DNA of 64,000 bases from Acidobacteriota bacterium. Its GTDB lineage: Bacteria; Acidobacteriota; Thermoanaerobaculia; Multivoradales; Multivoraceae. The translations under genes were made by a program, and so were the position numbers. Under the pieces are notes generated by a model. It had not been told where the DNA came from. It was given only the letters and a program-made list of their open reading frames with translations, and made no database searches. Of the stretch, positions 1-58,112 are shown one piece after another. Numbering within the stretch: position 1 is the stretch's first letter; the number at the start of each line of letters is the position of its first letter. Location of the stretch: contig QQVD01000020.1 in the NCBI GenBank assembly GCA_003388555.1, positions 1 to 64,000 of the forward strand. Reading direction: 5' to 3'.

Positions 1-432
1 GACGAGAGCGGCTGGAGTCGCGACATCCGGTGGCACAAGCGCGACGCCGAGGGCAACTGGACGGCGACCGAGATCCACCGCGAGGCGCGCAACGCGACCA
101 TCTACGGTCTCGCCACCGGCGATCTCGACGGCGACGGCGTCACCGATGTCGTCGCGGTGACCGACGACGCCGACCTGCTGATGTTCCGCGGCGAGGGCGG
201 CGGCAGGTTCTCGCGCATCGAGAACAGTCTCACCGAGCCGACCTTCACCTGCACCGGCCGGGCGGTCGAGCTGGACGACCTGGACGGCGACGGACGCGAC
301 GAGCTGACCGTGACCTTCGCCGGCGAGCCGGCGGTGGTCCCCGGGGTCGGCAGCTTCCCTGGATGCACTAATGAGGGTAGTATTCGCGTCTGGTCTCCCG
401 GTCCGATCGAGAAGATCGCGGCAGAGCCGTGA
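1..432 (+). CDS. FG-GAP/VCBS repeat protein, C-terminal part (5' end outside window)
   Basis: The open frame enters from the left edge and ends at a TGA at 430-432, giving the last 143 residues. Two acidic calcium-loop motifs are visible, GDLDGDGVTD (residues 40-49 of the fragment) and DLDGDGRDEL (93-102). These are typical of FG-GAP/VCBS beta-propeller blades found in secreted or surface proteins. Two cysteines lie in the last 45 residues. The next gene starts 6 bp downstream on the same strand, so the two are probably co-transcribed. Ligand and function cannot be told from the fragment. Confidence 0.75.
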   Translation, partial: DESGWSRDIRWHKRDAEGNWTATEIHREARNATIYGLATGDLDGDGVTDVVAVTDDADLLMFRGEGGGRFSRIENSLTEPTFTCTGRAVELDDLDGDGRDELTVTFAGEPAVVPGVGSFPGCTNEGSIRVWSPGPIEKIAAEP

Positions 433-438
433 TCGCCT

Positions 439-1401
439 GTGGCGTCGAGCCGGGCCGACCGCCCACCGATGTCCACCACAGCGCCAGCCAGCGACCTCTT
501 CGACCCGACCTCCGATCCCCTCGATCGGGCGCCGGAGGCAGTGCGTCGAGCCTGGGACGAGGCAGTCGCCTCGCTCGAGCGCGGCGAGCTCGAGGAGAGC
601 CGTGAGAGTCTGTGCGCGGCGCGCGACGCGGCCGAGGGTTTCGCGGAGCTCGAGGATCGTCTCGAATGTGCGCTGGCCGCGGTGCGCATCGAGCTCGGCG
701 AGGCGGTCTCCCGCGAGGCCCTGCGCGCGATCCTGATGCGCGCCGGCACGCCGATCGTCCTGCACCTGGCGGCCTACCAGATCGGTCGCCTGTTCGAGCT
801 CGAGGGCGCGGCGAAGAAGGCGCTCTTCTACGCCCGGCTCAGCCTCGAGCACGGGCGCCGCACCGGTCGCCCCGAGCTCGAGGCGCGCGCCCGCAACCTG
901 ATGGGCAACGCTCTCGCCGCCGACAGCTACTTCGAGCAGGCCAGGGCCGAGTACGCCAGCGCCCTGTCGCTCGACGCCGAGCCGCAGACTCCCTGGCGCG
1001 CCATGCTCGAGGAGAACATGGGCTACTGCGACGTCGTGCTGGGGGAGCTGGAGCGCGGTCTCACGGGCCTGTACCGCAGCCTCCGCCGGCTGGTTCGCCT
1101 CGGCGCCGAGCGGTTCCAGATCACCGCCCGCATCGACCTCGCGTACGGCCTCCTGCGGGCGGACCGTCCCGACCTCGCGACCCGCCATCTGCAGCGGGCG
1201 ATCGAGTTCGCCGAACGCCACGAGGACGGCCGCGCCCTGCGCAACGCCCTCTTCCTCGAAGCCGAGGCGGCCCACCGCCTCGGAAACACCTTCGCCGCCC
1301 GCCGCGCCACCCAGCGCCTGGGTGAGCTGACGGGATCCCCCGACCTGGCCGAGTACCTGCTGCACGCCGACGTGCTCGAGCTGGTCAACCTCAGAGCCTG
1401 A
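439..1401 (+). CDS. Helical-repeat (TPR-like) protein of unknown function
   Basis: A 320-residue Ala/Leu/Glu/Arg-rich protein with no signal peptide. Paired amphipathic helices run through nearly the whole length (about residues 30-305), with spacing and small/large alternation like tetratricopeptide repeats, so a cytoplasmic scaffold role is likely. The frame can start at GTG 439, 6 bp after the preceding stop, or at ATG 469, which gives 310 residues; neither has a clear Shine-Dalgarno. The gene lies between a secreted FG-GAP protein and another secreted protein, with gaps of 6 and 12 bp, suggesting one operon. I do not recognise a specific family. Confidence 0.65.
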   Translation: MASSRADRPPMSTTAPASDLFDPTSDPLDRAPEAVRRAWDEAVASLERGELEESRESLCAARDAAEGFAELEDRLECALAAVRIELGEAVSREALRAILMRAGTPIVLHLAAYQIGRLFELEGAAKKALFYARLSLEHGRRTGRPELEARARNLMGNALAADSYFEQARAEYASALSLDAEPQTPWRAMLEENMGYCDVVLGELERGLTGLYRSLRRLVRLGAERFQITARIDLAYGLLRADRPDLATRHLQRAIEFAERHEDGRALRNALFLEAEAAHRLGNTFAARRATQRLGELTGSPDLAEYLLHADVLELVNLRA

Positions 1402-1413
1402 GCTGCCACCGCC

Positions 1414-2802
1414 GTGTCTTCCTCACCCAGAGTCCCTGCTTCGAGCCTGCGCCCCAACGCGCAGGGTCGGGCCCTGCGCGCGGCGCTTCGTGGCGCATCG
1501 CTGGCCCTGCTCGCAGCGGTGGCGACGGCCGCCTCGGCGCAGATCGAGAGCGATCCCGTTCTCGACGGCTCGGGCACTCTGTATCGGGCCCTCGTCGGCA
1601 CCGAGGCGGAGCTCTTCCGTTTCGGTACCGGATTGGGTGACCGGCTCCTGCTCGCTCTCGACGTCAGCCGCGAGGGAGAGACCGAACGCCTCGTCGTTCC
1701 GGGCTCGATCGACGCTCTCGAGGCCACCAGCCCCCGGCTCGTGCACCTGGGAGCGAACCGCTCGGTCTACCTGCTCTGGGAGAGCCGCCTGAGCCTGCTG
1801 CACTCGCAGTTCAACCTCGTCGCCTACAGCCCCGAGGCCGGCTGGTCGCACACCACCGAGCTCTCCGGCCGGCCGTTCGCACGCAAGCTGCAGCCTTTCG
1901 TGATCCCCTACGGTGACGAGTACGACTCCGAGACCGCCACGCCTCGCACCTTCGTGCAGGTGATCTGGCGCGACGAGGAGGGGCGCATCTTCTTCGTCCC
2001 GTCCGCGGTCACAGCCGGCGAGATGCTCAGCACCGGACGGGCGCGCGACCTCAGCGAGGTCTTCCAGCTTCCCACCGGCGGTCTCGACACCTGGGACCTC
2101 GCCGTCCGGCGGGGAGAGCACCGCGGCGGCACCTGGATCGGCCGGCTCGATCGCGAGTCCGGTCGGATCGACCTGCTGCAGTCCCACATCGTCCCCGGGC
2201 CGCTGTCCCGCATCGCCGAGCAGGTGACGCAGACGATCCTGTCCGCCGATCCGAGCGCCACCCTCGAGACGGTCCGCGGCGACGCCCGCGCCACCATCGT
2301 CAACATCGGGCGCAGCTTCGAGCCCGCGCTGGCCGAGCTCCTGGCCGACGAGGTCGACGCCCGTCTCTCCCAGCTCCATGCTTCGTTCGACGACGGCGAC
2401 CTGCAGACCGTCGCCGGCGATGCGCGCGCCAGCATCGTCAACGTCGGCGCCCGCATCGAACGCGCCGGGTTCTCGCACGGTCAGCTGGGAGAGATCCCGT
2501 CGCTGCTGCTGCGCGTCGAGGAGCCCACGGCGGGAACGCCGACGGTGCACGACTGCATCGTCTTCCACCAGCTCACCTCCTTCGCCCCGGCCGAGCTCGA
2601 CCTGCGCGCGGCGCAGCTCCTGGTCTCGCGCGACGGCGAGCGACTCGCGGTGCTCAGCACCTCCGACGACGGCAGGCTGGCGAGCTACGCGATCTACGAG
2701 CAAAGCGAGTGGAGCGAGATCCGTCGTCTGCCGCTCGACATCGACGGCGGTGTCGCGACCCGCACACCGCGGCAGCTGTTGTCGGCCCTGATCGACGACT
2801 GA
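1414..2802 (+). CDS. Secreted protein of unknown function
   Basis: A 462-residue product from a GTG start. An N-terminal region with Arg residues is followed by a hydrophobic stretch (about residues 25-41) and an Ala-X-Ala site before QIESD, consistent with Sec export. The mature part is rich in beta-type sequence with repeated segments. Two segments resemble each other (around residues 288-298 and 332-342), both containing GDARA(T/S)IVN, so an internal duplication is likely. No catalytic motif is recognised. It follows the helical-repeat gene by 12 bp and is the last gene of this plus-strand run. Confidence 0.6.
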   Translation: MSSSPRVPASSLRPNAQGRALRAALRGASLALLAAVATAASAQIESDPVLDGSGTLYRALVGTEAELFRFGTGLGDRLLLALDVSREGETERLVVPGSIDALEATSPRLVHLGANRSVYLLWESRLSLLHSQFNLVAYSPEAGWSHTTELSGRPFARKLQPFVIPYGDEYDSETATPRTFVQVIWRDEEGRIFFVPSAVTAGEMLSTGRARDLSEVFQLPTGGLDTWDLAVRRGEHRGGTWIGRLDRESGRIDLLQSHIVPGPLSRIAEQVTQTILSADPSATLETVRGDARATIVNIGRSFEPALAELLADEVDARLSQLHASFDDGDLQTVAGDARASIVNVGARIERAGFSHGQLGEIPSLLLRVEEPTAGTPTVHDCIVFHQLTSFAPAELDLRAAQLLVSRDGERLAVLSTSDDGRLASYAIYEQSEWSEIRRLPLDIDGGVATRTPRQLLSALIDD

Positions 2803-3347
2803 TCGCGTCCCCGCCACGCCGCAGGCCGGAGTCCGGGGCAGCTCCCGCGTCGAACATCGGTTACCCGCAGGGAGATCCCTGTTGCCGGAGGCGCTCCCTC
2901 GGCTCGGCAGGGAGCTGCCACCCACCGGCAAGCCGTGGAGCGGGACGGCGCTCCCCACGCGGGCTCGGACGGAACGTGGTGGCGCCACGCCTTCCCCGCC
3001 GGGCTCGACGATCGTTGCTCGCAGGCCTCTGAGGGGTGAAGACAAGGACGATCGTGACCGCCACTCCTGGCGACGGGCGTTGCGGCCCCACTGCAGGGCA
3101 GCTCTGGACGACAGCTCTGCACGACAGGGCCAGTAACCTGCGTCAACGAGCCTTCGACGATCTGCTGACCTTCTCGCCGAGCGCTGCGAGCGCTCCAGCT
3201 CGGCCACACGCCGGCCGCGCGGCTCCGGCACGGTCGGCGCGCGGCAGCACGCGGCAGCAGCGAGCCTGCGGCCGGCGAGCCCGAGTCCACGGAAGGCGCG
3301 GCGGGGAGCCGCGGCGGCTGGCGCCTCTCAGACGCCGCGATGGCGCG
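2803..3347. other. 545-bp intergenic region, no gene seen
   Basis: This lies between two convergent genes. Frames here are short and have the arginine/proline-rich composition expected of GC-rich non-coding DNA. I see no RNA gene, no strong hairpin with a T-run and no mobile-element ends. Confidence 0.5.
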
Positions 3348-41429: not shown

Positions 41430-41546
41430 TTCTACCAGAACGACGGTGTTCAGCGCCAATCCCGTCGCAGGAGGGACGGACCTCCCGCCCTTGGGCACCC
41501 TTGCCGCACAGCCCCCTCCAACACACCCTCTCGTCAGCCGAGCTCC

Positions 41547-41885
41547 GGCGACGGATCAGCGGCGCGCAGGCGAAGCTGCACCCCCGAGCCGCTCAGCCCC
41601 CCGCACCCCGCCAAAACGGCCGCCCACACCCTGGCTCTCCAGTACACCTTCGTGCCTTCAGCCGCCCCCGGCGACGGATCAGCGGCGCCGAAGAACCCGC
41701 GCCCTGCGACGGATCAGCGGCGCGCCGGCAGAGCCGCCACCCGTGCCGATCAGCCCTCCCTCGTGCCTCGCCGTCCCGCATCCACCGCCTCTGCGGCCCA
41801 AGGCCGTCGCTCTCCGGCTCGTGCCTTCAGCCGCCCACGGCGACGGATCAGCGGCGCCGAAGAACCCGCGCCCTGCGCCGATCAG
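41547..41885. repeat. Non-coding repeat region built from a GACGGATCAGCGGCGC-type unit
   Basis: The core occurs four times in the same orientation (41547-41565, 41670-41688, 41705-41723, 41839-41857), with two degenerate copies near 41745 and 41875. Within it, 41651-41708 and 41820-41877 are a 58-bp direct repeat with a single mismatch. No frame reads as a protein. It lies between the sigma-54 activator and the nucleotide-sugar dehydrogenase gene, in the 605-bp gap 41353-41957. Confidence 0.9.
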
Positions 41886-41957: not shown

Positions 41958-43319
41958 CTAGGCACGCACCACGTTGGGTAGCGGCTGGCGAAAGACGCCG
42001 CGCGTGTCGACCACCAGTGGCGCACAGCGCGCCACCAGCTCCCAGTCGATCGCCCGGTGGTCGGTGACCACCACCACGGCGGCACAGCTCTCGAGCGTCG
42101 CCGCGTCGAGCGGTGTCGAGCGCAGCGGCGGAAGGTCCGGCCAGGTGCGCATCGAGGGCGCTTCGGGCAGCAGCGGATCGTGGTATCCGACCTCGGCCCC
42201 GAGCTCGTGCAGCCGCGACAGGATCTCGAAGGCGGGGCTCTCCCTCGGATCGGCGACGTCGCGCTTGTAGGCCAACCCCAGCACCAGGATCCGCTGTCCG
42301 CGGATCGGCAGGCTGCGGTCGTTCAGCGCCAGCAACAGCTTCTGCACCACCCAGGCCGGCATCTCGACGTTGACCTCGCCGGCGAGCTCGATGAAGCGCG
42401 CCGTGCGCCCGTACTCTCGCGCCTTCCAGGAGAGGTAGAAGGGGTCCACCGGGATGCAGTGTCCTCCCCAGCCGGGGCCCGGATCGAAGCGCATGAAACC
42501 GAACGGCTTGGTCGCCGCGGCGTCGAGCACCTCCCTGACGTCGATCTGCATCTCGTCGAAGATGACCTTGAGCTCGTTGACCAGCGCGATGTTCACCGCC
42601 CGGAAGATGTTCTCGGTGAGCTTCGCGGCCTCGGCGACGCGCGCCGACGACACCGACACCGTGCGCGGCACGACCAGCTCGTAGAGGCGGCAGGCGAGCT
42701 CACCGGACACCTGGTCGACCCCACCGACCACCTTGGGGATCTTGGTGGTGTCGAACTGCGGGTTGCCGGGGTCCTCGCGCTCCGGAGAGAAGGCGAGGAA
42801 GAAATCGTTCGCCAGGGTGAGGCCGCCGGCCTCGAGGATCTCGCGCAACTCGCCGTCCGTGGTGCCCGGGAAGGTGGTCGATTCGAGCACCACGAGCTGG
42901 CCGCGGCGCAGCGAGGTGGCGATCCGGCGCCCCGTGTCGAGCACGTAGGAGAGGTCCGGCTCGCGGTGGCTGGTGAGCGGGGTCGGCACACAGACGATCG
43001 CGACGTCGACCTCGCCGAGGCGCGAGAAGTCGTCGGTGGCCGCCAGGGTCCCGGCCTCGACGGCACTGGCCAGGCGCGACGAGGAGACGCCGCCGATGTA
43101 ACTCTCGCCGGCATGGATCGCGGCGATCTTCGCCGCATCGATGTCGAAGCCGAGGACGCGGATGCCGGCGTCGGCGAAACCCATCGACAGCGGCAGCCCC
43201 ACGTAGCCGAGCCCGAGCACACCGACACGCACCTCACGGTCGTCGATGCGTGCCGCGAGCCGCTCGGCGAGCTCGCCGCGGCTGCTCCGCTCGCTGTTCG
43301 TCTCTTGGCTCTGCGACAT
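41958..43319 (-). CDS. Nucleotide-sugar 6-dehydrogenase (UDP-GlcNAc/UDP-glucose dehydrogenase family)
   Basis: 453 residues from ATG 43319 with GGAG upstream. Rossmann motif GVLGLGYVGLPLSMGFADAG (about 32-51), central helix domain, catalytic C288 in WGGHCIPVDPFYL and the C-terminal ILVLGLAYKRDVADPRESPA. The GLGYVGLPL and HCIPVDP forms fit the WbpA/TviB branch that oxidises UDP-GlcNAc (or related amino sugars) to the uronic acid, more than UDP-glucose dehydrogenase, but the substrate is not proven. It feeds surface polysaccharide. Neighbours include a glycosyltransferase and a GlmS-like gene. Confidence 0.88.
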   Translation of the reverse strand: MSQSQETNSERSSRGELAERLAARIDDREVRVGVLGLGYVGLPLSMGFADAGIRVLGFDIDAAKIAAIHAGESYIGGVSSSRLASAVEAGTLAATDDFSRLGEVDVAIVCVPTPLTSHREPDLSYVLDTGRRIATSLRRGQLVVLESTTFPGTTDGELREILEAGGLTLANDFFLAFSPEREDPGNPQFDTTKIPKVVGGVDQVSGELACRLYELVVPRTVSVSSARVAEAAKLTENIFRAVNIALVNELKVIFDEMQIDVREVLDAAATKPFGFMRFDPGPGWGGHCIPVDPFYLSWKAREYGRTARFIELAGEVNVEMPAWVVQKLLLALNDRSLPIRGQRILVLGLAYKRDVADPRESPAFEILSRLHELGAEVGYHDPLLPEAPSMRTWPDLPPLRSTPLDAATLESCAAVVVVTDHRAIDWELVARCAPLVVDTRGVFRQPLPNVVRA

Positions 43320-43444: not shown

Positions 43445-43718
43445 TCAGCGTCCGTCGCGGCCGCGCGATCCGGCGATGCTCGCCGGCTCTCCTGCGGCCT
43501 CGTCGACCACCGGCGGATCGGCGGCTACTGCCGGAGGCCCCGCGGCCGTGCGCCAGCGCCGCGCCAGCCCCTCGACCGAGCCGACCAGCAGCTCCTCCAC
43601 CGAGCAGGACTCGAGCAGATCGTCGCGGAATCCGGGCTCGGTCTCCATCACCGCATCGCGTAGCTTGCCGTAGCGGCCGCGGTAGCCGCCGAGCACGCCG
43701 CGCAGGACAGCCGCCGGC
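43445..43718 (-). pseudogene. Displaced original C-terminal coding segment of the GlmS-like gene
   Basis: In the frame left behind by the duplication, the sequence continues from HIDLAERAPAAVLRGVLGGY to a stop at 43445, about 90 residues. If one copy of the duplicated 122 bp is removed the upstream gene runs into this segment without a break. It has normal coding character (third-position GC-rich) but is not reached from the gene's start. Confidence 0.75.
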
Positions 43719-46700
43719 GCGCGCTCGGCGAGATCGATGTGCAGCAGCACCAGCCCCACGGTGCGCGCCTTCTCCAGCTCGGGCACGAGCAGGAACAGCC
43801 GGCCGTCGGCGGAGCCTCGCGCCACCCGGACCTCGCCGTCGCGCGCTCGGCGAGATCGATGTGCAGCAGCACCAGCCCCACGGTGCGCGCCTTCTCCAGC
43901 TCGGGCACGAGCAGGAACAGCCGGCCGTCGGCGGAGCCTCGCGCCACCAGGACCTCGCCGTCGCGCGCCACCGACCGCTTGGTGCCGCGCAGCTCGGGGC
44001 GCGAGGCGGTGCGCGACGCGAGGCCGCGCGAGAGGCCCGCGGAGTGCACCACCCGGATGCTCGAGTGCTCGGACCGCGGGTCGCCCGAGATGCGGTAGCG
44101 GGTGTGACCGCGAACTTCCCTCACCACCGGGTCGAGCGTCGCCAGGGTCCGCAGGCACCCGTAGGTGAGGCGGTCGCGATCGACCCCCGCGGCGAGCACC
44201 TCGCGCACCAGGGGCACGGTGAGGAACGCCTCGTCGGTGCGCGAGATACCGACGGTGACCGTCTTCGCCTGGTGCTTGATCGCATCGATCGGCCGCGTCA
44301 GCTCGTCGATGGCGACCGACAGGGTGTCGTGCAGCGCGTCGAGGACCACCGCCGGCGTTCCGGGGCGGCCGCGCAGCACCGCGAAACCCTCGAGCGGGAG
44401 ATGGCCTAGCGCGGTGTGGATGAGTAGGCCCAGGTCGGCAGCGGTGGAGGCGCGCAGGTGGCCGTCGTAGGAACCGTTCTCGAGCGCCCGCAGGAACTCC
44501 TTCGAGGGTCCGCGGAGCAACGGCCGCATCTCGTCGAGCGGGTCGACGTCGAGCAAGACCTTCGGACTCTCGGTGGAGGCGCCCGATCCTCGGCGCGAGC
44601 CGCCACGCTCCACCGCGGCGAGTTGCTCGATCTGGCTGCGCATCGCGCGCAGCGGCGCCGCCTGGGCGTCGATCGCCAGCGCCGCCTCGTAGCCGAAGAG
44701 ATGTCCGGCCAGCGCCGCCAGCACGAAATCCAGCTGCGGATGCACACGCGGCACCTGGATGCGCGCTGCCGCGGCATCGAAGCGGTCGTCGCCCGTGCTG
44801 GCCACGACGATCGGCACCGCCTTGTGGGCACGGTAGATCGCCACCTCCTTCGCCACGTCGTCCGCAGTCGACCCGATGAGGCCCGCCGCGGCGACGAGGA
44901 TCAGCGGCTCGCTCGAGAGGTCGATGTGCTTCTTGTCCTCGGTGGCGTCGCAGGCGATCGACTTGTAGCAGAGCTCGGAGAGCTTGATCCGGACCTCTTC
45001 CGCCGCGACCCGGTTGGCGCCGTTGCCGACCACCGCCCAGTAGCGTTGCGGCGGCGCCAGGCGGCGCGCGATCTCGGCGATCTGCTCTCGCCGCGAGAGC
45101 AGATCCCGCATCGCCTCGGGCAGCCGGCGCAGCGCCGCGAGCAGCGCCTGCCGCGACGGGTCCAGCGCGGCGCGATCGGGGTCGGCGCCCTCACCGTCGG
45201 TGGCGCTGGACATCGCGTCGGCGAGAGCGAAGGCGAGCAGGAAGCCCGCCGCCACCTGCGAGTAGAAGGCCTTGGTCGAGGCGACGCTCATCTCGAGATC
45301 GCGCCCGTCGGAGGTGTAGAGGACCCCGTCGGCCTTGTCGGTGAGATCGCTCTGGCGCCGGTTGACGATCGCCAGCACCGCGGCGCCGCGGCCGCGCACC
45401 AGATCGACGGTGCGGTTGGTGTCGGTGGTGGTGCCGGACTGGGAGATCGCCACCACCAGCACGTCGCTCATCTCCGGCCGCAGCCCGAAGCCGCTGAGCT
45501 CGGTGGCGGGCAGGGCGCGCACCTCTGGCACCCGATCGGGATCGAGCAGCTCGCGGATCGCGTTGGCCACCGCCTGACCGGCGACGGCGGCGGTTCCCTG
45601 CCCGATCACCAGGACCCGCCGCAGGGAGCCATCCGCCAGCCGCCGGCGCACCGCGACGGGCAGGGAGTCCTCACCGAGCTCGACACGCAGGGACTCACCA
45701 CCCTGCTCCTCGATCAGCTTGCCGCGCAGCGTCTTCGCCCACGACGAAGGAGCCTCGGAGATCTCCTTGAGCAGGAAGTGGGGATAGCCGCCGCGGTCGA
45801 CGTCGCGCGCGGTCATCTCGGCGTGACGCAGGTCACGCTCGGCGAGCGGCAGATCGGTGCCGTCGTAGGCTCGCCGCTCGACCGCCGCCGGACCCAGTCC
45901 GCGGCCCAGGTCGAGGGTCACCACCTGACCGCGGCTGGCGGTCGGGTTACCGGGATTGCCGGGGCTCTCACCGTCGAGGCGCAGGTAACGGCTGGTCTCT
46001 TCGACGACGCCATAGAGCTCGCTGGCGACGATCTGGCAGTCGTGCCCGAAGCCGACGTAGAGGGCCTGACCGCTGCCCCGCAGCGCCAGGTGCATGCGCT
46101 CGGGCTCGCCGCTGAAGTGGGCCGCGATCGCCACCGAGCCCTCGAAGGAGGCCACCGTGGCGCGGAACGCCTCCGCTGGCGTGCTGCCCTCGGCAACCCT
46201 CAGCCCGCAGAGGGCCGGGATCACCTTGGCATCGGTGGTGATCTCTTCGCGGAAGACCAGCCCCTCGGCGGCCATCAGGTCGGCGTAGTTGTCGACGTCG
46301 CCGTTGAGCACCGCGAAGCAGGCCTCCTCGGGCGAGGTGCCCTTGCGGGTCGACGAGCGCTCGTCGAGCGGATGCGCGTTGGGCTCGCTGACGATGCCGA
46401 TCGAAGCCCAGCGGGTGTGTCCGAGCACCGCGAGCCTCACGGTCGGGCCGGCGAGGGCCGTGCGCAAGAGGGCGTCGGCCTGCAGCTGCCGGCGCAGCTC
46501 ACGCACGTTGTCGCCCAGCTCGCCGATCTCCGCCGCGACCTTGTAGACCAGGCTCAGCGCCCCCGGGACCCGGCGCACCGTGCCGCGACGGAAGAGGGCG
46601 TCGCCGCGCTCCGCGATCAGGCCTTCGACCTCGTCGTCGGCGAGTCCGTGATCGCTGATCAGGAGGTGCAGGCCGGCAGAATCGCGACCGCGGACCTCCA

Positions 46701-47196
46701 TGCGGTCGATCGCCTGCAGCGCCTGCTGGATCGACAGCAACGCGGCGATGCCGGCCGCGTTGTCGATTCCCGGCGCCATCTCCCAGGAGCGCTCGCAGGT
46801 GGCGAGGCGGTCGAAGCGGATCGCCCAGACGACGTCCTTGAGCCCCACCAGGCCGCGGTTGAAGCGCTCGCCCAGAGCCGCCGCGGTTCCCAGCTCACCG
46901 CGATCGAAGCGCTCCTCGAAGCGCGCCACCTGCTCGCCGAGCCGATTCGCTGCCGCGAAGATGCGAGGCCGCTCGCCGCAGCGCCGCAGCGCCACGCTCC
47001 CGGCGCCGCCGCGCAGCTCCAGCTCGAGCGCAGCCAGCTCGCGGCAGCTCTCCTCGAGGACCGCGAGGACCTCCTTCCCCCGCGCCGGCTGTGCGAGCCG
47101 GTCCGCCGCCGCCTCCAGCCGCCCGCCGAGGCCGTCGAGAGCAGGGATCTGCTCGTCCGCCGGGCAGGGCCGCAGGATGCCGATGATTCCGCACAT
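43648..47196 (-). CDS. Giant GlmS-like amidotransferase/SIS protein, C terminus frameshifted
   Basis: As read, 1,182 residues from ATG 47196 (GGAGA upstream). The nucleophile is Cys2 in MCGIIGI; the glutaminase domain has a large insertion (about 12-165), then RGRDSAGLHLL (about 170), LGHTRWASIGIVSEPNAHP (about 258-276) and LNGDVDN. Two SIS domains follow (about 525-665, with ISQSGTTTDTN and SVASTKAF; about 715-830). A further about 250-residue region has no recognised domain. A 122-bp duplication at 43719-43962 shifts the frame, so the last about 60 residues are aberrant. Ordinary GlmS is about 600 residues. It may use glutamine and a sugar phosphate. Confidence 0.82.
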   Translation of the reverse strand: MCGIIGILRPCPADEQIPALDGLGGRLEAAADRLAQPARGKEVLAVLEESCRELAALELELRGGAGSVALRRCGERPRIFAAANRLGEQVARFEERFDRGELGTAAALGERFNRGLVGLKDVVWAIRFDRLATCERSWEMAPGIDNAAGIAALLSIQQALQAIDRMEVRGRDSAGLHLLISDHGLADDEVEGLIAERGDALFRRGTVRRVPGALSLVYKVAAEIGELGDNVRELRRQLQADALLRTALAGPTVRLAVLGHTRWASIGIVSEPNAHPLDERSSTRKGTSPEEACFAVLNGDVDNYADLMAAEGLVFREEITTDAKVIPALCGLRVAEGSTPAEAFRATVASFEGSVAIAAHFSGEPERMHLALRGSGQALYVGFGHDCQIVASELYGVVEETSRYLRLDGESPGNPGNPTASRGQVVTLDLGRGLGPAAVERRAYDGTDLPLAERDLRHAEMTARDVDRGGYPHFLLKEISEAPSSWAKTLRGKLIEEQGGESLRVELGEDSLPVAVRRRLADGSLRRVLVIGQGTAAVAGQAVANAIRELLDPDRVPEVRALPATELSGFGLRPEMSDVLVVAISQSGTTTDTNRTVDLVRGRGAAVLAIVNRRQSDLTDKADGVLYTSDGRDLEMSVASTKAFYSQVAAGFLLAFALADAMSSATDGEGADPDRAALDPSRQALLAALRRLPEAMRDLLSRREQIAEIARRLAPPQRYWAVVGNGANRVAAEEVRIKLSELCYKSIACDATEDKKHIDLSSEPLILVAAAGLIGSTADDVAKEVAIYRAHKAVPIVVASTGDDRFDAAAARIQVPRVHPQLDFVLAALAGHLFGYEAALAIDAQAAPLRAMRSQIEQLAAVERGGSRRGSGASTESPKVLLDVDPLDEMRPLLRGPSKEFLRALENGSYDGHLRASTAADLGLLIHTALGHLPLEGFAVLRGRPGTPAVVLDALHDTLSVAIDELTRPIDAIKHQAKTVTVGISRTDEAFLTVPLVREVLAAGVDRDRLTYGCLRTLATLDPVVREVRGHTRYRISGDPRSEHSSIRVVHSAGLSRGLASRTASRPELRGTKRSVARDGEVLVARGSADGRLFLLVPELEKARTVGLVLLHIDLAERATARSGWREAPPTAGCSCSCPSWRRRAPWGWCCCTSISPSARRRLSCAACSAATAAATASYAMR
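43719..43962. repeat. 122-bp tandem direct duplication in the GlmS-like gene
   Basis: Copies 43719-43840 and 43841-43962 are identical except one base (c at 43827, a at 43949). Both are flanked by GCGCGC, which recurs right after copy two, so the event looks like slippage or unequal exchange at a 6-bp microhomology. 122 is not a multiple of three. Confidence 0.95.
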
Positions 47197-47286: not shown

Positions 47287-48600
47287 CTAGACGGCGAGGA
47301 GTGACCGGCCCGTCGCCGCCAGGGCGGCGCTGACCGCCTGGCGCACCCGCCGCGCGCATTCGTCGGGATCGTGCTCGCGGCCGACGAAGTCGCGCGCCGC
47401 CGCGACCTGGCGCTCGGCGAAGGCGCGGTCGTCGAGCAGGCGCTCGACCTCCTCGATCCACTGTTCGGGCGATTCGGCCACCGCCAGGGGCAGTCGCTCC
47501 GGCGCGCCCACGCCGGCCGCCGCCCAGGGAGAGGCCACCACCGGCACACCCTCGGCGAAGGCCTCGAGCACCTTCACCGGCACTCCGGCTCCGGCCTGCA
47601 TCGGCGCGATGGCGACGCGCGCCCGCCGCAGCACCGCGCGCAGAGACTCGGGCGACGAGACCAGTGTGGCTCCGGCGCTCTCTAGACGGCGCGCCAGGGC
47701 GCGACCGGGCCGGTCACCGGCGACCGCCAGCCGCAGTCCCGGTCGGCGGCGGCGCAGCCCCGGCCAGACCCGCCGCAGCCACTCGTCCAGGGCGTCGCGG
47801 TTGACCCAGTAGCCCAGGTTGCCGGTGAGGATCAGGTCCCACTCGATCTCGTCGCGACGGATCGTCGCGGCCTGCCGCGAGACCGGCAGCGGCAGATGGT
47901 GCAACCGCGCCGCGACGTCGTCTCGGCCACCGCCGCCGCGGGAACCACCCGACACCGACTCCCCTGCATCGGCCGGGCTGGCGGGCAGCAGACCGAGCAG
48001 GTGCTCGCGGTCGCGCCGGCTGACCACGGCGACGCCGGCGGCGCTGCGCAGCACCGCCAGCTCGAGGCGCTCGAGGCGCCGCGCCTCGGCGGCGAGGAGG
48101 CGACGCCGGCCTCCACTCCCCAGGCCCCGCTGACGCGCCGCCCGACGCGCGAAGTTGAGCGACAGAGCGTCGATCAGATCGACGAACGAACGGCCGGGAG
48201 CGAGGCTGGCGAGCACCTCCGCCTGGCGCACCATCTGGACCACCACGAGGTCGTAGTCCGCGGCGATGCGACCGAGGCGGCGCCGCAGGTCGGCCGAGCC
48301 GTACAGGCCGCTCTGCAGCGGCTCGCCCCGCACCGCCGCGCGCAGCACGCCGACGCCGCGGTCGAGCGTGGTGCGCCGATAGGTCCAGTGGCGACCGCTG
48401 ACCGGCGACAGCGCCACCGGGTCCGCCGTGGTCGTGACCGCACCCGGCGCCGGAGTGAGCAGGTCGACGTGATGACACGGCGACAGCGCCGTGAGGAACT
48501 GTGCGGCGCGCAGCTGGTCGCCGCGTCGGACCTCTCCGAGAGCCCGCGCGGTCACCAGCAGCAGACGGGCTCGCGGCGCCCCGGTCGTCGAATCTCCCAC
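47287..48600 (-). CDS. GT4-family glycosyltransferase
   Basis: 437 residues from GTG 48600, with GAGGTG upstream; GTG 48606 or a longer start to 48744 is possible, but the latter overlaps the divergent gene. The C-terminal half is a GT-B Rossmann fold: DLILTGNLGYWVNRDALDEWL, LRLAVAGDRPGRALARRLES, VAIAPMQAGAGVPVKVLEAFAEGVPVVASPW with the E-x7-E-like region near KVLEAFAEG. This matches retaining GT4 enzymes acting on nucleotide-sugar donors. The acceptor is unknown; it probably builds envelope polysaccharide. It lies upstream of the GlmS-like gene on the same strand. Confidence 0.85.
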   Translation of the reverse strand: MGDSTTGAPRARLLLVTARALGEVRRGDQLRAAQFLTALSPCHHVDLLTPAPGAVTTTADPVALSPVSGRHWTYRRTTLDRGVGVLRAAVRGEPLQSGLYGSADLRRRLGRIAADYDLVVVQMVRQAEVLASLAPGRSFVDLIDALSLNFARRAARQRGLGSGGRRRLLAAEARRLERLELAVLRSAAGVAVVSRRDREHLLGLLPASPADAGESVSGGSRGGGGRDDVAARLHHLPLPVSRQAATIRRDEIEWDLILTGNLGYWVNRDALDEWLRRVWPGLRRRRPGLRLAVAGDRPGRALARRLESAGATLVSSPESLRAVLRRARVAIAPMQAGAGVPVKVLEAFAEGVPVVASPWAAAGVGAPERLPLAVAESPEQWIEEVERLLDDRAFAERQVAAARDFVGREHDPDECARRVRQAVSAALAATGRSLLAV

Positions 48601-48715
48601 CCACACCTCGCTCGCCGTCTCGGACCCTGCGGCCAGTCTCGCACAGGGAAACCTCCACGGTCCGTAAGCGGTTGCCGCGTCGGCGGCCTGGCCGGGGCTG
48701 CTATGGTCTGCGGCC

Positions 48716-49912
48716 GTGCCGCGACCTCCCCAGCTCGCCCCCACCGCGGCCGCGATCCGCGGTGCGGTCTACTCCTCGCTGACCGACCGGGTCGATCCCA
48801 GCCAGGAGATCTTCCCGCTCCACGTCGGCGACACCTACCTCGAGCCGCCGCCGCAGTGTGCCGCGTCGGCGCTGACCGGCGCCGCGGACCTCTACCGCTA
48901 CACCGCCACCGCCGGCACCGGCGCGCTGCGCGAGCAGGTCGCCGCCAGCGTCTCGTCGCGCACCGGCCAGCGGCTCGGCGCCGAGGACGTCTACGTCACC
49001 GCCGGCGCCACTGCGGGTCTGGCGGCGACGCTCCAGGCCCTGGTCGAGCCCGGCGACGAAGTGCTGCTGCTGGCGCCCTACTGGCCGCTGATCGAGGGGA
49101 TGACACGCGCCTGCGGAGCCCGTCCGGTCGCGGCGCCGATCGGCGACCTGGAGCCGTCCGCGGATCCCGAGGCCCTGATCGAGCGGCTCGACGGACTCTG
49201 CTCGCAGCGCTGCGTGGCGCTCTACTACTCCTCGCCGAACAATCCCACCGGACGCCTGTTTCCCGCCGCCTGGATCGAGGCGCTCGCCCTCTTCGCCCGA
49301 CGGCGCGACCTCTGGCTGCTCGCCGACGACGTCTACGACCTCTACTGCTACGCCGGTGAGCACCGCTCCGCGCTCGGCCTGGCGCCGGAACGCACCGTGG
49401 TCGCCTACTCGGCGTCGAAGGCCTATGCCATGGCAGGCAACCGGTGCGGCTGGCTGATCGCGCCGCAGCCGGCGATGGGAGCGATCCAGAAGCTCGGCAC
49501 GCACGCCTTCTACAGTGCGCCGACCTTCGCCCAGCACGCCCTCGCCCGCGCCCTCGAATCGGCCGACGACTGGGTCGCAGAGACCCGCGAGGCCTACGGC
49601 CGGATCGGCCGACGGACGGCGGAGATCCTCGGCGTCCCACCGCCCGACGGCGGCACCTTCCTCTTCCTCGACGTCGCCGCGTGCCTCGGCGAGGGCGGAC
49701 TCCCCGAGCTCCTCGAGCGCTGCGCCCGCAGCAACCTGCTGCTCGCTCCGGGGCCCAGCTTCGGGCCCTTCCCGACCTCGATCCGGCTCTGCTTCACCGC
49801 CGCGCCGCCCGAGACCATCGTGCGCGCGGCGCAACGGCTCGCCGGCCTGCTCGGCGAGGCCGGCTCGGCGGCGGCGGAGGCCGCGGCCGCCACCGGCGGG
49901 AGGGCGCGATGA
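48716..49912 (+). CDS. PLP-dependent aminotransferase, class I/II
   Basis: 398 residues from GTG 48716. The PLP-anchoring lysine is K235 in YSASKAYAMAGNRCGW; YYSSPNNPTGRLF contains the conserved N-P-T-G, and LLADDVYD the PLP-pyridine Asp region. It belongs to fold type I aspartate-aminotransferase-like enzymes; the substrate is not clear. Its last four bases overlap the start of the Nit-type amidase gene (ATGA), so the two are translated together. That pairing suggests a transaminase whose by-product is hydrolysed by the amidase. Confidence 0.9.
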   Translation: MPRPPQLAPTAAAIRGAVYSSLTDRVDPSQEIFPLHVGDTYLEPPPQCAASALTGAADLYRYTATAGTGALREQVAASVSSRTGQRLGAEDVYVTAGATAGLAATLQALVEPGDEVLLLAPYWPLIEGMTRACGARPVAAPIGDLEPSADPEALIERLDGLCSQRCVALYYSSPNNPTGRLFPAAWIEALALFARRRDLWLLADDVYDLYCYAGEHRSALGLAPERTVVAYSASKAYAMAGNRCGWLIAPQPAMGAIQKLGTHAFYSAPTFAQHALARALESADDWVAETREAYGRIGRRTAEILGVPPPDGGTFLFLDVAACLGEGGLPELLERCARSNLLLAPGPSFGPFPTSIRLCFTAAPPETIVRAAQRLAGLLGEAGSAAAEAAAATGGRAR

Positions 49913-57107: not shown

Positions 57108-58112
57108 TCAGTCGTGATCGGGCAGCTGCCCGCGCTCCTCGAGCTCCTGGCAGCTCATGCAGTGCCGCGCCCACGGCAGGGCGCTGAGACGCTCACGGCT
57201 GATCTGGATACCGCACGAGGTGCAGCGGCCGAAGGTGCCGCGCTCGAAGCGCACCAGCGCAGCCTCGATCTGGTCGAGCAGGGCCCTCTCGCCGTCGGAG
57301 ATGGCGAAGGTGAGCTCGCGTGAGTACGCGTTGTTGGCGCGGTCGACCTCGTCCTCCATGCCGCCGTCGGAGGGTCTGAGACCCAGCTCGACGTCCTGCT
57401 GGTAGAGCTCGCGCAGCTCGTCGCGCTTCGCCTCGAGCTGCTCACGGAACTGTGTGGCGAGCTTGGCGGGCAGCGAAGTCGGCGGCGTCTGCTTGGTGTC
57501 GGCGAGCCCCTGGCGTCGCGAGCTGATCAGCAGACGCGGCCTTGCCCCGGCGCCGTTGGTGGAGGAAGCGCCAGAGCCCGAGGCCTCGTCCACTGCCTGG
57601 GATCCGGTGCTGCGCGAGGCCTTCCTGGAGACCTTCTTGCTGGTCGACCTGCGGGTCGATTTCCTGCTGACGGTCTTCTTGCCACCCGTCTTCCTGGCGA
57701 CCTTCTTCTTGGCCACCTTCTTCGCCGTCTTCTTCTTGGCCGTCTTCTTCTTGGCCGCCTTCTTCTTGGCCGTTCTCTTCTTGGCCGTCTTCTGCTTCGC
57801 TGCAGTCTTCTTGACGGCGGCCTTCTTCTTGGTCGACTTCTTCTTGGCGACCTTCTTCTTGGCGACCTTCTTCTTGGTGGCCTTCTTCTTGGTGGCCTTC
57901 TTCTTGGTGGCCTTCTTCTTGGTGGCCTTCTTCTTCACGGCGGCCGCCTTCTTCGTGGCCACCTTCTTCTTGGCCGTCTTCTTCTTGGTCGACTTCTTCT
58001 CGGCGGCCTTCTTGCTCGCGCTCTTCTTCTTGGCGGTCTTCTTCGCGGCCTTCTTCTTCGAGGTCGCGCTGCGCGCCGAGCTCTTCTTGGTCGACGGTCT
58101 CTTGGTCGCCAT
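57108..58112 (-). CDS. Histone H1-like lysine-rich tail fused to a DksA/TraR zinc-finger protein
   Basis: 334 residues from ATG 58112. The first about 175 residues are lysine/alanine/threonine repeats (KKKATKKKATKKKVAKKK type), like histone H1 tails. A linker (about 176-224) leads to a coiled-coil plus zinc-finger domain typical of DksA/TraR regulators: LEAKRDELRELYQQDVE, EDEVDRANNAYSRE, then CTSC and CMSC about 17 residues apart (C4 zinc site). The DksA-type head enters the RNA polymerase secondary channel; the tail probably binds DNA or RNA. Downstream of rlmH on the same strand. Confidence 0.88.
   Translation of the reverse strand: MATKRPSTKKSSARSATSKKKAAKKTAKKKSASKKAAEKKSTKKKTAKKKVATKKAAAVKKKATKKKATKKKATKKKATKKKVAKKKVAKKKSTKKKAAVKKTAAKQKTAKKRTAKKKAAKKKTAKKKTAKKVAKKKVARKTGGKKTVSRKSTRRSTSKKVSRKASRSTGSQAVDEASGSGASSTNGAGARPRLLISSRRQGLADTKQTPPTSLPAKLATQFREQLEAKRDELRELYQQDVELGLRPSDGGMEDEVDRANNAYSRELTFAISDGERALLDQIEAALVRFERGTFGRCTSCGIQISRERLSALPWARHCMSCQELEERGQLPDHD

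Follow-up and report, generated by a model that had tools for sequence, protein, structure and literature searches.

In an uncultured Acidobacteriota bacterium, the only GlmS-type gene found in the genome carries, within its C-terminal coding region, a 122-bp tandem duplication that is probably a real, recent and spontaneous mutation. The gene lies in the window, by which the whole analysed stretch of 64,000 nucleotides is meant. The allele is best explained as an unstable loss of the protein's tail and not as an evolved switch.

Position and Sequence of the Duplication

TRF places the array at 43712–43968, with a period of 122 and a score of 500. Copy 1 occupies 43841–43962 on the minus strand and is read in frame; copy 2 occupies 43719–43840 on the same strand and lies out of frame. 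The copies differ by a single mismatch at position 14 of the copy, where the coding strand has T in copy 1 (the ancestral base, in the Leu codon CTG) and G in copy 2 (one derived base, giving CGG, or Arg in the ancestral frame). An earlier, sequence-only reading of the window had reported these coordinates and the one differing base, and both proved exact on re-check. It had also described the copies as bounded by the word GCGCGC; the full homology is longer and covers 12 of 13 bases. The upstream end of this outer breakpoint homology, GCGCGCGACGGCG, lies at 43957–43969 and the downstream end, GCGCGCGCCGGCG, identical to it at 12 of 13 positions, at 43712–43724, all limits being approximate and both ends lying on the minus strand. 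When the window is matched against itself without gaps, offset 122 scores 123 and the runner-up among offsets of 20 to 3000 scores 53, which sets the array far above chance. No second long copy of the array segment was found elsewhere in the genome, leaving one locus.

The gene is flanked downstream by a nucleotide-sugar dehydrogenase (UDPG_MGDP_dh; TIGR03026) at 41958–43319 and upstream by a group-1 glycosyltransferase at 47287–48744, both on the minus strand. The dehydrogenase is syntenic in relative L033 and the glycosyltransferase in L033 and L004, and the gene order around the giant gene is common to L033. Other repeats occur in the window. In the spacer at 41545–41880, downstream of the dehydrogenase, a GGCGACGGATCAGCGGCGC-type element occurs in four copies, among them a pair of 62 bp with 97% identity and 169-bp spacing, and a low-complexity tandem array with a period of 15 and about 25 copies extends over 57674–58058.

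Consequences for the Reading Frame and the Protein

As read, the open reading frame runs from an ATG at 47196 to a stop at 43648 on the minus strand and encodes 1182 amino acids. As 122 cannot be divided by three, translation exits the ancestral frame after residue 1119, the last of the stretch HIDLAERA (residues 1112–1119), and the last 90 residues are swapped for 63 aberrant ones, encoded at 43648–43840 on the minus strand and ending at the premature stop. The earlier description of a shift past HIDLAERA, followed by about 60 aberrant residues and an end at 43648, is borne out by this count. An alternative frame through copy 2 runs to 43445. The arithmetic by which the removal of one copy had been said to restore the gene is also correct: 3752 − 122 = 3630 bp, or 1210 codons with the stop included, which gives a protein of 1209 amino acids.

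Beyond the premature stop lies a stranded tail of about 90 codons of the ancestral frame (43448–43718, minus strand, with the stop at 43447–43445), which is not translated in that frame. It is still conserved, residues up to about B98 matching relatives at 40–61% identity. Since the tail retains its coding composition and its conserved residues, decay is minimal. The lost segment includes Y, R, V, L and A at B53, B56, B64, B76 and B93, respectively, all of which are invariant in 100 divergent homologues.

The C-terminal domain of relative L033 was modelled at a pLDDT of 91.7 and has a beta domain, after which comes a helical tail (helices 289–343) with a model pLDDT of about 96–97. The break sits just past the last strand of this modelled domain; thus, the frameshift replaces the helical tail with residues whose model pLDDT is about 32–45. 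Cys2, the GATase domain, both SIS halves and the AKTVTV motif are all located upstream of the break and are retained, so that partial function is possible. The truncated enzyme may be destabilised or mis-regulated in the sequenced lineage or in a subpopulation of it. Rescue through programmed −1 frameshifting was rejected, as no in-frame slippery heptamer (X_XXY_YYZ) occurs after 44389 and hence none lies in the array.

Ancestral State among Relatives

A tblastn search with the copy-2 frame recovered 100 loci in relatives, all of which run on in a single frame beyond the duplicated segment, at 40–61% identity. Every one of them terminates 87–116 residues after the start of the duplicated segment, and a second copy is present in none. 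The 100 loci include two identical pairs and therefore represent 98 distinct relatives, all of which lack an array or varying copy number at this site. Outside this set, three more loci are cut by contig ends, and the more divergent L027 also runs on. The finding of a single copy in the copy-2 frame in all 98 distinct relatives indicates that the duplication is confined to this genome. The outcome that was to count against the earlier reading, close relatives that all end at 43648, did not occur when their C termini were compared: none of them ends there.

The same conclusion about the frame can be read from a profile of the C-terminal domain, which matches the window in two pieces (43834–44736 and 43547–43855) that differ in frame and meet at the array, where the frame switches. 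At the mismatch site, relatives have Leu, Met, Thr, Phe, Val or Ile, and Arg in 0 of 100. Copy 1, with Leu, is accordingly regarded as ancestral and copy 2, with Arg, as derived.

A Giant Form in Place of Canonical GlmS

The affected protein begins with an N-terminal Cys2 and an N-terminal insertion, followed by a GATase_6 domain (aa 256–393; E 1.2e-7), an SIS domain (aa 526–655; E 1.1e-14), a second SIS half, the AKTVTV motif (aa 977–982) and a C-terminal extension. The residues M1, C2, G3 and I4 (MCGI, with the catalytic Cys) are at least 90% conserved, and the closest PDB structures are GFAT/GlmS isomerase domains. Canonical GlmS (TIGR01135, glutamine--fructose-6-phosphate transaminase, about 608 aa) shares Cys2, the GATase_6 and SIS domains and the AK[ST]VTV motif, whereas the giant form measures about 1150–1210 aa and has the N-terminal insertion. 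The two also differ at the C terminus: canonical GlmS from the same order ends in DQPRNLAKSVTVE, whereas the giant form carries KHQAKTVTVG internally, at 974–983, with about 200 residues after it. The invariant KHQAKTVTVGISR at aa 974–986 (about 44239–44277) resembles this canonical ending. The TIGR01135 match reaches 206.7 bits (E 5.9e-61), below the equivalog cut-off of 418 bits, a value that is likewise not attained in any genome with the giant form.

The C-terminal domain gave no Pfam or PDB sequence match. Foldseek returned weak GAF/PAS-like matches alone (best E 0.014), and a GAF/PAS-like identity, suggested by this fold comparison, may be taken as a lead only.

Every sampled member of the host's family has the giant form and lacks canonical GlmS; canonical GlmS is present in 14 of 17 genomes from other families of the same order. 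Ten more genomes with the giant form are also without canonical GlmS, and one of these (locus L033) shares its record with family member G002. Among 60 genomes sampled from the phylum, two have the giant C-terminal domain without canonical GlmS, and 56 others have canonical GlmS. This mutual exclusion suggests that the giant protein would be the glucosamine-6-phosphate synthase of these organisms. No paralogue that might act as a backup was found in the genome, the other matches being partial and of the amidotransferase type. Besides the gene at 43648–47196, the giant form was observed at loci L004–L027 and L033–L112, in MAGs labelled Acidobacteriota, Acidimicrobiia/Actinomycetota and Planctomycetota.

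Origin of the Duplication

The sequence-only reading had left three origins side by side, namely a recent real mutation, a reversible switch of the C terminus and an assembly error. The recent real mutation is the best supported of the three, given the single-copy ancestral frame in 98 of 98 relatives, the 12 of 13 matching bases at the breakpoints and an array that an assembly at k=127 could cross only where reads supported it. The homology between the outer ends fits a slipped-strand or template-switch duplication, and for a random duplication of comparable spacing in the GC-rich window it would arise by chance with P about 3e-4. As the breakpoint homology suggests, the nascent strand most likely slipped back by 122 bases during replication, paired again with a GC-rich word of 13 bases that is nearly identical (GCGCGCG[A/C]CGGCG), and so copied the segment twice. 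As the sequence, the homologues and the models show, the ancestral frame is lost after residue 1119, with a stop 63 residues on, and the conserved helical C-terminal tail is deleted. Ordinary back-deletion could restore the single copy, and reversion through simple deletion is mechanistically expected. As a counterpoint to a recent origin, the copies are already one mismatch apart, which implies that the duplication is not brand new or that it was made with an error. It would also be surprising for a disabling allele of the sole GlmS-type gene to be fixed in the population if the tail were essential.

Two known systems come closest to this duplication. In the E. coli tetA assay, 101-bp tandem repeats delete at high frequency in a RecA-independent manner, via template switching (PMC8378479). 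The present array is similar in being a direct tandem repeat of roughly 100 bp within a coding gene, and like the tetA repeats it would be expected to arise and to delete by misalignment of the nascent strand. It differs in being a natural duplication in an uncultured Acidobacteriota bacterium, known from its assembly alone. In Bordetella pertussis, a 30-bp tandem duplication inactivates the manganese exporter BP3410 and its loss restores function, a reversion that was demonstrated under manganese stress (PMC8546581). BP3410 and the present gene are alike in that a tandem duplication of natural origin within the gene disables it and would in principle be fully reversible. The BP3410 unit, however, is 30 bp and in frame by length, whereas the unit described here is 122 bp and frameshifting, and its reversion would be expected on mechanistic grounds.

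Assembly and Array Survey

The genome is a draft short-read assembly of 74 contigs, in which nearly every contig was examined at its start and most of them at their ends. Where contig ends overlap, the overlap mostly measures exactly 126 or 127 bp and stops near positions 146–150 of the partner contig, from which we infer a de Bruijn assembly with k=127 and reads of about 150 bp. In this assembly, contigs do break at arrays whose exact repeats reach at least 127 bp. The longest exact run common to both copies of the 122-bp array is 109 bp, which is shorter than k; thus, the array should be resolvable and its junction is expected in reads. Contigs L146, L147, L138 and L194 (G000) end within exact tandem repeats of at least 127 bp, with units of about 100–170 bp, and intergenic minisatellites appear to fragment this assembly.

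Arrays were surveyed in 125 stretches of the same genome, about 2.4 Mb, or 2.46 Mb with the window included. Those 2.46 Mb contain 19 tandem arrays with a unit of at least 50 bp. Except for the 122-bp array, all are located in spacers or at the ends of contigs, and none was found to interrupt a conserved gene. This amounts to about 8 arrays per Mb, in a sample where contig ends are over-represented, and resembles the rate of about 6 per Mb at unrelated control loci (5 in 0.85 Mb). The idea of a hyper-duplicating genome was rejected on the basis of this control-like rate and the location of the other arrays. Two candidates for a second gene-frameshifting array, in L137 (83 bp) and L225 (127 bp), were also rejected, both being intergenic on inspection.

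Alternative Explanations

That the genome has one copy and that the second was produced by read chimerism, by mixed strains or by a faulty join between contigs is unlikely, although a short-read draft in 74 contigs, with contig ends in repeats and apparent strain tips, is a setting in which such errors can be suspected, and the mutation strikes a sole GlmS-type gene that is expected to be essential. At k=127 and with reads of about 150 bp, each 127-mer of the array should derive from reads; with no more than 109 identical bases in common, the copies should neither collapse nor loop at this k; and the site has neither Ns nor a contig break. A head-to-tail join of contigs would, moreover, not be expected to produce breakpoint homology at 12 of 13 bases (P about 3e-4). 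The inferred k=127 and the longest exact repeat of 109 bp thus argue against the assembly error proposed by the sequence-only reading, which keeps a low probability.

It is very unlikely that the tail is dispensable and that the 1182-aa protein is a stable, functional form in this lineage. Every recognised catalytic motif is upstream of the break, and canonical GlmS stops at its AKSVTVE motif with nothing beyond, but the segment that is lost includes residues that never vary across 100 divergent homologues, and its helical fold is modelled with confidence. An evolved phase-variable switch, in which the C-terminal 90 residues are toggled as one 122-bp copy is gained or lost, is highly improbable. 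In bacteria, nearly perfect tandem repeats of such a length are indeed deleted at high frequency (PMC8378479), and loss of such a repeat can restore a gene (PMC8546581), but no relative has the array at this site, the genome's other arrays are confined to spacers or contig ends at a rate like that of control loci, and the biosynthesis of cell-wall precursors is not a typical contingency function. The reversible C-terminal switch of the sequence-only reading has consequently gained no positive evidence, the site being single-copy elsewhere. Most doubtful of all would be a maintained toggle of a regulatory tail on the sole glucosamine-6-phosphate synthase, which would yield populations of both types, with different amino-sugar or cell-wall synthesis.

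Conclusions

The duplication itself is most likely an ordinary slippage event, well observed in one genome and of modest interest. If real, it provides a snapshot of a slippage duplication breaking the apparent sole GlmS-type gene of an uncultured bacterium, and the function of the unexplained C-terminal tail becomes directly testable. Automatic annotation would yield a truncated or split GlmS at this locus. The broader by-product of the analysis is more interesting: in this family of Acidobacteriota, canonical GlmS is replaced by a form of 1150–1210 aa, and this widespread oversized protein carries a C-terminal domain without a Pfam name that merits separate study.
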